From: Acidobacteriaceae bacterium
Lineage (GTDB): Bacteria > Acidobacteriota > Terriglobia > Terriglobales > Acidobacteriaceae
NCBI GenBank assembly: GCA_027306695.1
Contig: DAHUZH010000002.1
Span: 1-64,000 of the forward strand
Reading direction: 5' to 3'
DNA length: 64,000 nt
A program made the translations under genes and the position numbers. Shown piece by piece: positions 7,761-17,886 of the stretch. Below the pieces are notes generated by a model. It was not told the origin of the DNA, searched no databases, and saw only the letters and a list, made by a program, of their open reading frames with translations. The stretch's first letter is position 1. Each line of letters starts with the position of its first letter.

Positions 7761-9203
7761 CTATTCCGCAGGAACCACAAGATATTGCTCGATCTTGCCG
7801 TCTGGCATCTGGTAGGTCGTGACATATACATGCGTCTTTGGAAAAGATACGTCATACATGCGAAACGTCATGCCGCCGCGCAGTTCCTTGGATATCTGTC
7901 GAAATTCGAGCGGCGCGCCAAGCGGCTTCAGGCTCGATGCATAATCCGCCATTGCCTCGGCGTCGAAATAGGCGTTGCAGTTCTCCGTGAAGAGAGTGCG
8001 GTCGATCTGGTCATTCTGCAGGCCAAGAAAAATCTGCCGTGCCTGGTCTTCACTGGCTTTCGCTTCGCTTGGCGGCAAGCCAACCAACAACGCGGCCAGT
8101 TTGCTCGCAATCGCGCCGGCTGCGCCGACGGCCTCCTGATTCGTCAACACCGCAATCGCCACCTTGTCCTGCGGCAGCACCATATTTTCGCTGGTAAATC
8201 CGGAAACCTCACCACTATGCGAAATCACTGGATGACCGTTGCGGGTGGAAACCTCAACTCCCAGGCCGTAATTCGTATCCTGCCCATTTTTCAACTTCAC
8301 TCCGGTAAACATCTGCTGATACGATGCAGGCTGGAGCAGAGATTGATTCATCATGCTGATGTCCCACAGCAGCAGATCGTGCACCGGCATGGCCAGTTCG
8401 CCGGCTGCAAACATCCAACCTGGACCATCCGTCGGAGCGGGGCGCAGCGGTCCGAGCGCGTAACGAATGTACCCGTGCGCATCGCTCTGCTCCAACTGGT
8501 GGGCATCGGAGTTCATCACGCTGCGCATGTCGAGCGGAGTAAAAATGTTTTGCTGCAAGAATTTCATCAGCGGCATGCCGCTGATGATTTCGACAATTTT
8601 TCCGGCGAGGACAAAGTTCGTGTTGCTGTACTGCCATTGAGTGCCGGGGTCGAAGTCGAGCGGTTTTCTGCCCCAGTTGTTCAGGATGGCGTCCGCCGTA
8701 GTGGCATGCTTCATCGGCAGCATGGAGTAGTCTTCCGCGTAATAGTCCTGATAGCCAGAGGTGTGAGAGAGAACCTCGCGCAGCGTCACTTCATTGGAGC
8801 GCGTCAGTGCAGGCAGCCATTTTGAAACGGTGTCGTCGAGCGAGAGCTTGCCTTGCTGCTGGAGGATGAGAACCGCCGACGCCGTGAACTGTTTGCTGAT
8901 GGAGCCGATGCTGTAACGCATTTGCGGCGTGGCCGCGTCTGGCGGATCGAGTTCCGCTTTGCCGTAGGCGCGCAGATACGCAACTTTTCCGTCTTTCACA
9001 ATGCCGACCGAAGCGCTGGGCACGCCGGTCTGCGCCAGCACCTGCTGCGCAACGGCGTCCACCTTGGCCTGCTCGGCAGTGGGCAGCGTGTTCTGCGCGA
9101 AGGCAGCGATTCCTGTCAACAAACAACCGGCCACACACATGCCTGTTAGTGCGGCAAAGACATTTCGACACAGACGGCCAATCCACTCTACATGCAAGGA
9201 CAT
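7761..9203 (-). CDS. Exported serine hydrolase, beta-lactamase/penicillin-binding-protein-like
   Basis: 480 residues with an N-terminal signal sequence. The serine beta-lactamase fold is shown by S101-I-S-K104 (SxxK nucleophile and base), Y192-S-N (YxN) and H329-S-G in place of KTG. A C-terminal extension follows the catalytic domain (from about 380). Such class-C-like proteins include D-aminopeptidases, esterases and carboxypeptidases, so beta-lactamase activity should not be assumed. Start ATG at 9203 is set by AAGGAG 8-9 nt upstream. The gene is divergent from the unknown gene at 9318. Confidence 0.85.
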   Translation of the reverse strand: MSLHVEWIGRLCRNVFAALTGMCVAGCLLTGIAAFAQNTLPTAEQAKVDAVAQQVLAQTGVPSASVGIVKDGKVAYLRAYGKAELDPPDAATPQMRYSIGSISKQFTASAVLILQQQGKLSLDDTVSKWLPALTRSNEVTLREVLSHTSGYQDYYAEDYSMLPMKHATTADAILNNWGRKPLDFDPGTQWQYSNTNFVLAGKIVEIISGMPLMKFLQQNIFTPLDMRSVMNSDAHQLEQSDAHGYIRYALGPLRPAPTDGPGWMFAAGELAMPVHDLLLWDISMMNQSLLQPASYQQMFTGVKLKNGQDTNYGLGVEVSTRNGHPVISHSGEVSGFTSENMVLPQDKVAIAVLTNQEAVGAAGAIASKLAALLVGLPPSEAKASEDQARQIFLGLQNDQIDRTLFTENCNAYFDAEAMADYASSLKPLGAPLEFRQISKELRGGMTFRMYDVSFPKTHVYVTTYQMPDGKIEQYLVVPAE

Positions 9204-11856: not shown

Positions 11857-12898
11857 ATGCAAGCCTTAGCCAGTAGGATGCAAGCCCAAACAATGCCAAG
11901 GGACGTTGAAGATCTTGAGCGTCACGCTGCTAAATTCTGGCCTGCGGCCCTCGCCCAGCGCGAGGAAACGACCAGCATTATTCCAAAGCTCATTGAGTCA
12001 CAGGAAAAATTCATCGGAATACTATACGTTGCCGATGCTGCCCCAACTGCATGGAAGGACGTACTGCGGGCGACAGCCGGGATGCCCGGAAACCTGTTCC
12101 TGAAACACCTCATCGTTTTGTCCGATGTGGGAGGGGAGAAACTGCAACGCTACAAGACTGAAATTAGGAAATTTTTTCCCGCTGGCGCAATGACCTTATC
12201 ATTGGAAGAATGCTGAGCATAAATATGTTTTTCAATCCGTTAACAGTCGACAGAAATGCACGTTGCAAGTCGATGGCCCTGGCCTTGCAGATGCCTGTGA
12301 CCTATCTGCTGCGATGGAAGATGTTGCGATGCTTCTCATTCACGGCGGGTCTGCGACAGACCCCGGCATACCAGACGACGTTCTTGAAAAGTGCACCATG
12401 GGAGCGCTCATCGGTAAAAAACGCGACCTCGACAGCTTTGTCAGACAGCGTTACATTCATGTAAGCCGGATCACCGGCGGTGCAACGGCAAACGCAATGG
12501 GGCAACTCTGTCAGGCATACGTGCGAGAGCGACTGGAAAATGCACTTCCTACATGGGACTTTTCGCGACACACGATTCCCGGAATAAGCCAGAACGAGGG
12601 CCGTACCGATATGTCCTTCGATCTGGTCGCGCAGTCTCCGAAGGGAAGATATTGCGCGATAGAGGTCAGTTTTCAGGTGACAACCAACAGCACGATAGAA
12701 CGCAAGGCGGGTCAAGCGGACGCTCGCCAGCGGTTATTGCGGGCCGCTGGGCACAAGATCGCTTATGTGATCGATGGCGCTGGCAACTTTCAACGCCGCT
12801 CCGCGCTATCCACCATCTGCGCGTATAGCGATTGCACCGTTTCAATCAAAGATGAGGAATTGGATGATCTCGCAAAATTCCTTAGAACGCTCAAATAA
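11857..12898 (+). pseudogene. DpnII/MboI-like type II restriction endonuclease, frameshifted
   Basis: Two frames encode one endonuclease of about 340 residues. The N-terminal frame (from ATG 11857 or 11893) ends at TGA 12214 after MTLSLEEC. The next frame supplies AEHKYVFQSV and runs to 12898. Skipping one base between about 12193 and 12214 joins them. The C-terminal domain holds the likely PD-(D/E)xK-type core: FDLVA, then CAIEVSFQVTTNS, then the conserved AYVIDGAGNFQRR. As in DpnII/MboI relatives, the usual lysine after E-V is absent. The methyltransferase follows 14 nt later. The fold assignment is by memory of the family pattern. If the frameshift is real, the enzyme is inactive. Confidence 0.65.
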
Positions 12899-12912: not shown

Positions 12913-14685
12913 ATGCCCCATCAAAGTGAAAAGGCGAATCGCCTTGCCGTCCGCACGATTGAAGTTTCGAGTATAGATTGCCTACCGAGGCCGAATTCAG
13001 AGCGGGCTGAAGTTTGGCTGCTAGTTTTGCCATACAGGCATAGGACGAACCATGCAGAAGCGTGGTTCAAGGCATTGCAACAGTTTGCGCAGGCGCTCAA
13101 CGATCAGTCAATCGTTGCAGTCCTGACAACTGCGCAAGACGCGGCGGAAACGTGGCCGCTAGTCAGCAATTTTCTACACTTCCAGTTACTGGTCGCCATA
13201 AAGCTCGCCACTCCAATTACGCTGGGACCGCAACGCCTTCCACAGCACCATGTCGCATTGTTGGTTTTGTCGAAATACCGTACTTCCTTGCGCCATACGA
13301 AAACCAGAATCGGCTATACCTATTGCCCAGCGTGTGACAAGACAACGAAAGACTACGGGGGCAAGAAACACACGTATCACGAATACGGGACCCTTGTTTC
13401 CGACGTATGGAGAGATATTGCGTATGCACCCGGTGAGCAACCAAGGGAGATTACAACACGCCTGGCCGATCTATTCGGCTTGGAGCCTTATCGAGATATT
13501 ATCGTTGCGAATCTCGCCTCTGTACCTTCGCTTTACCAAGGACCCATGGAACCAGAACCTTGGCAAAATGCTCGCGGGGATGACACCCAGAATTTAGATT
13601 CACAACTCATCCACGGCGATTCGCTTGAGGAGCTTCGGAAGCTCCCAGCAAACTCCATTGATTTTTGTTTTGCCGATCCGCCCTACAACCTCGCCAAGCG
13701 ATATGATTCTTGGGACGATGCGATCGATGTTCAGGACTACTTAAACTGGTGCGATAACTGGCTGGATGAGCTTGCCCGCGTGTTGCGTCCGGGCTGTACT
13801 TGCGCAGTGCTCAACATTCCGATTCTGGCCATTCGGCATTTTCAGCGCATGAAGCAAAGCCTGACCTTTCAGTCTTGGATTGTTTGGGAAGGGATGAGCT
13901 TGCCCGTGCGGATGATTATGCCCTCTCACTATTCCATTGTTTGCTTCTCGAAGGGCACACCACGGCCTGTACCGGGACTTATCCGTGGTTCGGCAATATC
14001 TCTCGAAGCAGATGCGATCAAGACACTTCGCGAAAACCATTGTGTGCGTCAGCAGTGCATGGCGATGCGACGGAGGGCTGCGAATCCAGATCGCGAACCA
14101 ATCAGCGATCTTTGGTGGGACATTCATCGGCTCAAACACAACTCCCGGCGCGTCGATCATCCTTGCCAGCTCCCTCCGGCACTCATGCTGCGGCTGATTG
14201 CACTGCTTACATCCGAAGGAGAAGTTGTATTGGACCCGTTCAATGGTGCTGGCACTACTACCCTTTGTGCGGAAGTGCTGAGTCGTCGGTACATAGGTGT
14301 TGAACTTTCGGAGAAATATCACGCAATTGCCGAATCGCGGCACATCTTGTTGAAGGGTGGTGGAGATCCGTTTGAAAAAATAGTAGGTGTGCCAAAGGCG
14401 AAAAACAGTCGCGTCCATCGGATTGGTGGGATGAAATACGAAGTCCCCAAGAAAACCTTGCAACTGGAAGTGAAGCGCGTTGCGGGGCTGTTAGGCCACA
14501 TCCCCTCGCGGGATGAGCTTCAACAAACAGGTATTTATCCAATCCGGTATTACGATGAGTATTTCGTAGGTTGGGGCGAAGTATGCGCGGCCGCTAGGAC
14601 AACTGGAATGTCAGAATCGCGTACAGGGTCAACCGATGATAGTTTCCATCAACCTATGCTCTTTATGACTGATTCTGAAACGTAG
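12913..14685 (+). CDS. Beta-class DNA methyltransferase with duplicated N-terminal half and HNH-associated repeat
   Basis: 590 residues. It is the modification enzyme paired with the preceding endonuclease and methylates adenine N6 or cytosine N4. The catalytic motif IV is DPPY (255-258) and the AdoMet-binding motif is DPFNGAGTT (441-449), an order typical of beta-class enzymes. Residues 1-190 look like a degenerate copy of the same domain: LPYR at 39-42 stands where DPPY would be, FQLLVAIKLATP matches the later FQSWIVWEGMSLP, and C138-x-x-C141 lies before SDVWRDI, which parallels SDLWWDI at 398-404. Residues about 513-563 match the homing-endonuclease-associated repeat (LLGHIPSRDEL, GWGEVCAAAR). 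The target sequence cannot be read. GC looks lower than in the neighbours, consistent with acquisition. Confidence 0.85.
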   Translation: MPHQSEKANRLAVRTIEVSSIDCLPRPNSERAEVWLLVLPYRHRTNHAEAWFKALQQFAQALNDQSIVAVLTTAQDAAETWPLVSNFLHFQLLVAIKLATPITLGPQRLPQHHVALLVLSKYRTSLRHTKTRIGYTYCPACDKTTKDYGGKKHTYHEYGTLVSDVWRDIAYAPGEQPREITTRLADLFGLEPYRDIIVANLASVPSLYQGPMEPEPWQNARGDDTQNLDSQLIHGDSLEELRKLPANSIDFCFADPPYNLAKRYDSWDDAIDVQDYLNWCDNWLDELARVLRPGCTCAVLNIPILAIRHFQRMKQSLTFQSWIVWEGMSLPVRMIMPSHYSIVCFSKGTPRPVPGLIRGSAISLEADAIKTLRENHCVRQQCMAMRRRAANPDREPISDLWWDIHRLKHNSRRVDHPCQLPPALMLRLIALLTSEGEVVLDPFNGAGTTTLCAEVLSRRYIGVELSEKYHAIAESRHILLKGGGDPFEKIVGVPKAKNSRVHRIGGMKYEVPKKTLQLEVKRVAGLLGHIPSRDELQQTGIYPIRYYDEYFVGWGEVCAAARTTGMSESRTGSTDDSFHQPMLFMTDSET

Positions 14686-17007: not shown

Positions 17008-17886
17008 CTAGATGAAACGCGCACGGGCTGTCTTCTGACGGAAATCATCCCCTTCCATGGAAATCGTAATACACATTTCTTGTAAACGAGAGAGCATTCG
17101 GTCTCCGATGCGATCACCGAGCGTACCTTCTTTCATTGCACGTTCGGCATCAATGGTTTCCTGTGACTTCCCTGCGCCCTTATTCAACAGGGCTACGCCC
17201 TTATCGGTTACATCTTGTTGCGGTGGGGCAGGCGCTTGGGTACGGGTCAGCGCTGAGGCCAAGTTGGGATAATTGGTGGTGATCAGCGTTGTTTTCTTGT
17301 CGTTGTAGCGGGTATTCAGGACATGCGCCACTGTATCCCACACCCAGTCCGTTTTCTTCACTGCGCCCAACTCATCTAGGAGGAGGATCTCCGTCTCAAA
17401 AATCGGGCGCAAGATATCGAGTTCCGTTGTGGCAACCTGAGGATTGTAGGAATTTTGAATCTGCTTGAGCAGGTCGCGGTAATCGCAGAAAATCCCCGTT
17501 GCGCCGCGCTGTTCGATCAACTCCCGCAGTAATCCCACCGCCAGATGTGTTTTGCCCGTACCGATGCTGCCCGTCAGCAACAATCCGCGCCCTTCAGTTT
17601 CGAGCGGGTAGCCTGCGGCAAAGCGCCGCGTCGCCATCAGCGCCATGCCGAGCGAAGGGTCGGCATGGCGAAAGCCGGTGTGGAAGCTCTCCAGCGAGCA
17701 GTGGGCGTAGCGCTTTGGAATGCGGGCGCGCTGCAATCGCAGCCCTGCCTTTCGCTCCACGCGACAGACGCATTCGGCGGCAAACTGCTCCGCGCCGCGG
17801 CGTATCAGCCTCAGTCCTGTGCCAGCGCAATGCGGGCAGACGACGGTGGAGGGTTCGGACCTATCGGGCATGGGAGATTGGTTCAT
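17008..17886 (-). CDS. DnaC/IstB-like AAA+ ATPase with N-terminal zinc finger
   Basis: 292 residues. An N-terminal four-cysteine zinc-binding element (CPHC at 17-20, CVC at 39-41) precedes a helicase-loader ATPase: Walker A GSIGTGKT (106-113), Walker B LLLDELG (168-174), sensor 1 TTN (203-205), and the C-terminal IGDRMLSRL typical of DnaC/DnaI. In this family the protein loads the replicative helicase onto DNA. No transposase or phage gene is adjacent, so it is likely the chromosomal loader rather than IstB. A Pro/Gln-rich insertion (about 214-245) lies before the C-terminal box. It is divergent from rpmE. Confidence 0.82.
   Translation of the reverse strand: MNQSPMPDRSEPSTVVCPHCAGTGLRLIRRGAEQFAAECVCRVERKAGLRLQRARIPKRYAHCSLESFHTGFRHADPSLGMALMATRRFAAGYPLETEGRGLLLTGSIGTGKTHLAVGLLRELIEQRGATGIFCDYRDLLKQIQNSYNPQVATTELDILRPIFETEILLLDELGAVKKTDWVWDTVAHVLNTRYNDKKTTLITTNYPNLASALTRTQAPAPPQQDVTDKGVALLNKGAGKSQETIDAERAMKEGTLGDRIGDRMLSRLQEMCITISMEGDDFRQKTARARFI

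Follow-up and report, generated by a model that had tools for sequence, protein, structure and literature searches.

Gene content and domain layout of the locus

The window, i.e., the whole stretch of 64,000 nucleotides that we analyzed, lies on contig C222 of a 4.0 Mb draft genome (G000) of an Acidobacteriaceae bacterium. On its forward strand, positions 12,913 to 14,685 encode a protein of 590 amino acids which, based on the open reading frame, Pfam and its relatives, is predicted to be a two-part DNA methyltransferase, composed of a pseudo-methyltransferase half, an active-type beta-class half and a PF18780 repeat. The N-terminal half (N-half; residues 1-205, forward strand, 12,913 to 13,527) revealed a degenerate methyltransferase fold with neither DPPY nor FxGxG in profile alignment, models and structure matches. 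Within it, residues 122-169 (13,276 to 13,419, same strand) form a block, CPAC...KTTKDYGGKKH...GTL.SDVWRDI, which in the alignments falls where the target-recognition region is expected and is proposed here as a DNA-reading element. The C-terminal half (C-half; residues 227-480, forward strand, 13,591 to 14,352) appears to be an active-type beta-class N6/N4 methyltransferase, and its alignment places the catalytic motif IV, DPPY, at residues 255-258 (13,675 to 13,686) and the SAM-binding loop of motif I, DPFNGAGT, at residues 441-448 (14,233 to 14,256), both in the forward direction. A helical repeat of family PF18780 at the C-terminus (residues 514-561, forward strand, 14,452 to 14,595), seen both by Pfam and in the whole-protein model, is probably DNA-binding.

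In Pfam, the protein matched N6_N4_Mtase (PF01555) at residues 249-474 with an E of 2e-41 and 142.8 bits against a curated cut-off of 26.7, and all 81 two-part members aligned by us matched this family as well (E 0.01), while the first 226 residues gave no match over the cut-off. The C-half shows DPPY (255-258; DPPYN at 255-259) ahead of DPFNGAGT (441-448) and thus the order IV, recognition region, X, I, to which the name beta class refers. PF18780 (HNH_repeat, "Homing endonuclease associated repeat") reached 26.9 bits at residues 514-561 against a cut-off of 26. A sequence-only reading of the locus had named this C-terminal repeat of homing-endonuclease type correctly but had taken it for an unusual addition; with 72 of 81 members carrying it, it is a regular part of the family. 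Neither an HNH nor a LAGLIDADG nuclease domain was detected at E values up to 1, the associated repeat PF18780 being the only trace of this kind. A frame or assembly artefact was rejected for the methyltransferase, as its frame is open over 590 amino acids and relatives of similar length occur in many genomes.

Directly upstream lies a gene for a BanI-like type II restriction endonuclease, which the sequence-only reading did not mention. Its 5' part (forward strand, 11,857 to 12,216) matches positions 4-104 of the RE_BanI profile with an E of 1.8e-31, and its 3' part, in another frame (forward strand, 12,263 to 12,898), matches positions 127-336 with an E of 4.4e-78. Comparison with the intact relative L029 unveiled a single-base frameshift near 12,193-12,200, which splits the nuclease gene and leaves it broken in this assembly, while the methyltransferase is intact. 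With respect to a BanI-type restriction-modification system, the window therefore holds an adjacent PF24447 endonuclease but no intact nuclease frame, possibly due to an assembly error. Further downstream, at 17,008-17,886, we observed an IstB/DnaC-like ATPase gene (PF01695, E 4.2e-13).

Distribution of the family and its nuclease partners

When the N-half alignment was searched against genome contigs of GTDB, 176 pattern matches were obtained; relatives are encoded by 153 of these, and the best 80 were kept; the same kind of search in viral contigs gave two loci. The two-part methyltransferase is encoded at these 82 loci (the best 80 of 153 relatives and the two from viral contigs, three of all in part only) in at least 19 phyla, members without an N-half being outside the reach of a search with this query. 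The NCBI labels of the best 80 of 153 name 19 phyla, with five loci unlabeled; as most loci come from metagenome bins, isolated taxonomic outliers like the one archaeal bin (L029) may stem from wrong binning. No N-half match was found in plasmid and phage records. The N-half had matches in 20 of 396 genomes drawn from the phylum of the window, with two-part proteins in the window genome, G132, G360, G009 and G051; none of the 20 except the window genome belongs to the window's family, which suggests that the family was spread by horizontal transfer. For the alignments, we removed L053, L087 and L095, whose sequences are incomplete, as well as L062, L103 and L110, each of which shares 95% identity or more with a row that stayed in, so that 77 rows including the window remained; with L010, L011, L012 and L018, alignment A4 holds 81 rows, and A5, from which L073, L104 and L108 were dropped as short, holds 78.

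An RE_BanI homologue is located directly upstream on the same strand at 70 of the 82 loci, in most cases at a distance of 40 bases or less or overlapping by 4. The remaining 12 include five with less than 400 bases of upstream DNA and seven with more (1.4 kb in L080; more than 3 kb in L044, L084, L089, L101, L104 and L106), and these seven may encode solitary methyltransferases. For L012 and L018, the most distant two-part proteins, no nuclease-like gene was found among the neighbors listed, one of which, beside L012, was run against Pfam; L162 (3780-5639) and L163 (3364-5226), which carry the same proteins as L012 and L018, may be solitary methyltransferases, too. As the nuclease gene is split also in L043, L048 and L057, it may happen repeatedly that the nuclease is lost and the methyltransferase kept. 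Two further loci showed deviating nuclease genes: L034 carries a second 5' nuclease fragment downstream of the methyltransferase (8735-9022; 71% identical to the 5' part in the window), which may be a tandem copy or belong to a second system, and the BanI-like nuclease frame of L046 (2214-3749, 511 amino acids) has about 170 extra N-terminal residues, possibly owing to a wrong start or a fusion.

With a homologous nuclease gene followed by the methyltransferase gene, these loci resemble BanI (PF24447) restriction-modification systems. The PF24447-type plasmid nucleases of Bartonella (about 46% identical to that of L029) and Acinetobacter (about 38%), the two plasmid relatives with an annotated partner, are however followed by cytosine-5 methyltransferases of the dcm type, and no methyltransferase is present in the incomplete gene table of a third plasmid (E. 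coli), whereas in our loci the partner is a predicted amino-methyltransferase with a pseudo half. Judged by their sequences, related nucleases are thus paired with two unrelated kinds of methyltransferases.

Relatedness of the two halves, complementary losses and origin

On the question of whether the N-half is a METHYLTRANSFERASE, four results concur, namely a PADLOC profile, profile-profile alignment, structure matches and scans of single N-halves. The N-half of the window alone matches the PADLOC methyltransferase profile PDLC03238 at profile positions 218-293 (E 2.9e-7), a range that falls inside the positions 125-355 matched by the C-half. The N-half and C-half profiles are collinear over 169 columns with an E of 8.9e-5, and against 13 single-domain relatives the N-half profile reached a probability of 99.2 and an E of 3.7e-19, while one reversed and three column-shuffled control profiles gave E values of 0.07-0.56. 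These 13 are the matches L013-L028 without L015, the two-part L018 and L028, picked as best matches of the N-half. When 78 N-halves were scanned singly, five matched N6_N4_Mtase at E up to 1, with 4.7e-4 as the best value. The homology extends to about residue 205, slightly beyond the 190 of the sequence-only reading, and stops at the strand of motif I (195-200).

The collinearity of residues 1-190 with the catalytic part had already been claimed by the sequence-only reading, and its three pairs were recovered in order, as LPYR/PPYN, FQLLVAIK/FQSWIVWE and SDVWRDI/SDLWWDI, by the independent profile-profile alignment over the 169 columns; its placing of the CPAC cysteines where CVRQQC occurs later holds for the first cysteine, C138 falling on C377, but the second is offset by two columns. 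The same reading would have been contradicted by a fold other than that of methyltransferases, and beta-class DNA methyltransferases came out as top matches of the predicted structure. Modeled alone, the N-half reached a pLDDT of 85.6 and a pTM of 0.83, and Foldseek ranked DNA methyltransferases first, with an E of 4.0e-7 for M.BceJIV and CcrM; chains of METTL3-METTL14 and MTA1 were also among the fold matches of this model. In VIA-align, the best solved match was MboIIA (1g60_A; Z 11.1, rmsd 3.4, 162 aligned residues), followed by M.BceJIV (Z 10.5, rmsd 4.6, 172 aligned) and CcrM (Z 10.1, rmsd 3.8, 164 aligned), moderate values as expected of a truncated, degenerate copy. For the C-half, MboIIA gave a Z of 24.4 (rmsd 4.2, 220 aligned), M.BceJIV 23.8 and CcrM 23.5. 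In the whole-protein model (pLDDT 87.6, pTM 0.88), residues 12-200 repeat the strand-helix order of residues 231-441, ending at the motif I strand; the segment that would follow motif I and close the SAM pocket is absent. Sequence profile and models taken together, the N-half is homologous to methyltransferases and is predicted to adopt a methyltransferase fold.

Searching the N-half profile against sequences of solved structures returned only MboIIA (E 0.069) and ribosomal S15a chains (E 0.29), too weak a result when taken alone. A Pfam domain of its own was sought for the N-half, with none over the cut-off; CarbpepA_inh, which matched 34 of 78 N-halves (best E 0.0075), stayed below the family cut-off in the window and looks like a coincidence of cysteines. 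Chance or low complexity as the source of the likeness of the two halves, for which the missing Pfam match over the cut-off in the window could be quoted, is refuted and deserves practically no weight, since PDLC03238, profile alignment, Foldseek and VIA-align concur on a methyltransferase and the reversed and shuffled controls fail.

The catalytic motifs are distributed unequally. In the N-half, neither [DNS]PP[YFW] nor FxGxG occurs in any of the 81 aligned proteins, so that it shares fold and ancestry with the beta class but not the motifs of an active member. All 81 C-halves, on the other hand, carry DPPY or DPPF, and 79 of them D.F.G.GT, the other two reading DPFNGVAT and DPFNGAAT. The reverse was found for D147-Y148-G149-G150: in the alignment of 53 rows used for the tree, this motif is present in 18 of 18 N-halves (with W at 148 in two) and 13 of 13 single-domain methyltransferases, while none of the 18 C-halves has it, a gap taking its place. 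The single-domain set carries the block by selection, having been chosen by similarity to the N-half; its absence from the C-halves was not selected for. As far as these alignments go, the losses are complementary, the N-half lacking the catalytic motifs and the C-half the DYGG core of the CxxC-KDYGGKKH block.

The tree comprised 53 rows: each half was represented by L012, L018 and 16 of the 77 rows, to which the 13 single-domain proteins and, as outgroup, four methyltransferases from the own genome were added. N-halves form one clade (100/99) with long branches, indicating fast evolution, and C-halves another (98/98); of the single-domain relatives, one group lies closer to the N-halves (95/79) and the other closer to the C-halves (86/74), neither placement being firm. 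A single clade of N- and C-halves was not rejected (AU p 0.307). Phylogeny thus allows either that one methyltransferase was doubled and the copies diverged or that two related methyltransferases were fused, and the earlier description as an "inactive internal copy", well supported in that an inactive copy precedes an active one (DPPY and FxGxG being absent from all 81 N-halves), may be too specific in calling it internal. Since the basal L012 and L018 are already without the motifs, the pairing and the loss of the catalytic motifs in the N-half preceded the spread of the family in either case.

The single-domain KDYGG methyltransferases of the beta-class N6/N4 type (L013-L027) belong to the same family and are homologous to both halves, carrying the CxxC-KDYGG block in one catalytic domain. 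They differ in having no second half, so one domain would do both jobs, the 13 aligned rows being the best matches of the N-half. Some of them adjoin nucleases of other kinds: next to L171 is a BamHI family nuclease (E 3.1e-42), next to L169 a BglII-like one (E 2e-7), next to L172 a BglII-like one below the cut-off (E 9e-5), and L115 and L167 have DpnII/BanI-like neighbors.

A proposed division of labor within one chain

The earlier observation of two halves was right, and as its best-supported reading we propose a mechanism, argued by analogy and in our view fairly probable, in which the N-half reads the DNA and the C-half methylates it, as in EcoP15I Mod but within one chain. According to the EcoP15I report (PMC4490356), this type III Mod dimer is likewise of the beta class and has one methyltransferase copy reading and the other methylating: most base contacts are made by one Mod subunit, and the flipped adenine is received by the other. 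The same report places the target-recognition region of Mod between the part with motifs IV-VIII and the part with motifs X and I, and its authors call such a division of labor conceivable for the whole beta-amino subfamily and METTL3-METTL14.

Transferred to our protein, the two-part methyltransferase would do the modifying in a type II restriction-modification system with a BanI-like restriction partner and would form an asymmetric pair in a single chain. The C-half would take the place of the methylating subunit, with SAM binding and methyl transfer as its predicted activities, and we infer that the dead N-half most likely packs on it like the second subunit in dimeric beta-class methyltransferases. 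In the place of the reading subunit, the N-half would read sequence through the CxxC-KDYGGKKH block; the PF18780 repeat probably gives extra DNA contacts and, together with the C377-x4-C382 region of the C-half, may read further bases. As the chain is asymmetric, it would mark one strand each time it binds, and to finish a palindromic site it would have to bind again in the opposite orientation.

The block occupies the place of the target-recognition region and is more constrained than the rest of the N-half, with a mean column information of 3.61 bits compared to 1.79 for residues 1-121 and 2.08 for residues 170-205. Its conservation is partly built in, because the 82 loci were retrieved with two patterns taken from it, though L126, H128, T131, Y135, C138, P139, C141 and W166, all outside these patterns, are at 100% in the 77 rows. 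It could also reflect zinc binding or folding instead of DNA reading. Residues 131-160 are the least confident part of the N-half modeled alone (pLDDT 51-61) and reach 81-92 in the whole-protein model. At the same place, the C-half has its own invariant residues C377, R379, C382 and R386, and with this region it may recognize some of the target on its own.

These residues, together with PF18780 in 72 of 81 members, would also fit an explanation that we hold to be unlikely, in which the N-half is only a structural partner replacing a second subunit, while region 351-395 of the C-half and the C-terminal repeat read the sequence; beta-class methyltransferases are mostly seen as dimers according to PMC4490356. 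In a pure scaffold, however, one would expect the interface to be the conserved part, and not the region at the recognition position, whereas the N-half varies widely outside residues 122-169 and has a near-invariant block. Still more doubtful is a regulatory or restriction-coupling module, e.g., a sensor of methylated DNA or a binder of the BanI-like nuclease: though the tight gene pair at 70 of 82 loci would suit it, two-part methyltransferases also occur with no nuclease gene adjacent, since among the 12 unpaired loci there are seven whose sequence extends upstream by more than 1.3 kb, and the basal L012 and L018 have kept the block with no nuclease gene nearby. That the N-half is a functionless evolutionary remnant, as its missing catalytic motifs and fast evolution might suggest, is very improbable in view of a block that is near-invariant in at least 19 phyla; no loss of the N-half was seen among the loci, all of which were retrieved with the N-half as query.

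BanI cleaves at GGYRCC, DPPY is commoner in N6-adenine methyltransferases, and the methyltransferases of BamHI and BglII, whose nuclease families adjoin some of the single-domain relatives, are N4-cytosine enzymes. From the motifs of the two-part enzyme, the methyl type should be either N6-adenine or N4-cytosine; the latter would be favored if the nuclease has kept the BanI site, as GGYRCC has no fixed A. The observed/expected ratio of GGYRCC was 0.52 in the window (fourth lowest of 64 patterns), 0.58 in G396 (sixth of 64) and 0.73 in G399 (29th of 64). Closely spaced GGYRCC pairs numbered 12 versus 29 in the reversed control for G000, and 57 versus 1 and 11 versus 0 in the whole genomes G400 and G401, an excess in the latter two that runs in the opposite direction to G000, G396 and G399. 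In the 400 kb samples of G396 (L122-L141) and G399 (L142-L161), GTMKAC was strongly depleted, with observed/expected ratios of 0.18 and 0.10.

Several known systems resemble the proposed arrangement in part. EcoP15I differs by its two identical active chains, whereas here one copy in a single chain appears permanently inactive, and it has the helicase-nuclease Res, in place of which the two-part methyltransferase adjoins a PF24447 nuclease rather than a type III Res. M.BceJIV, CcrM and MboIIA align with the C-half over its length but have one methyltransferase domain per chain. METTL3-METTL14 and the ciliate MTA1-MTA9 are alike in joining an active methyltransferase to a methyltransferase-like partner; they are separate eukaryotic proteins of the MT-A70 branch, and METTL3-METTL14 acts mainly on RNA. 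Our models and alignments predict an active-type and an inactive methyltransferase fold in one chain, though all 81 proteins match PF01555 and none an MT-A70 family at E 0.01. METTL14 has EPPL in place of DPPY (PMC4490356).

The component families are known; as far as our searches of titles and abstract beginnings in open-licence literature show, the fused dead and live architecture is undescribed as a conserved type II modification enzyme, although REBASE may catalogue one. Whether it represents a widespread prokaryotic methyltransferase with recognition on a dead and catalysis on a live copy in one chain, and thereby a single-chain form of the EcoP15I division of labor, the bacterial equivalent of METTL3-METTL14 and a case in which the BanI nuclease family has changed its partner to an unrelated kind of methyltransferase, is a point on which we are evenly divided. 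Found beside a nuclease in many unrelated bacteria, the two-part enzyme may show how one half aims while the other marks. In a homodimer, reading and catalysis are hard to mutate apart, as both chains come from the same gene; if our proposal is true, one gene would hold the two jobs in separate halves, and mutants of reading and of chemistry would be separable. Should the N-half read DNA, exchanging its block among relatives could help to learn how specificity is encoded.
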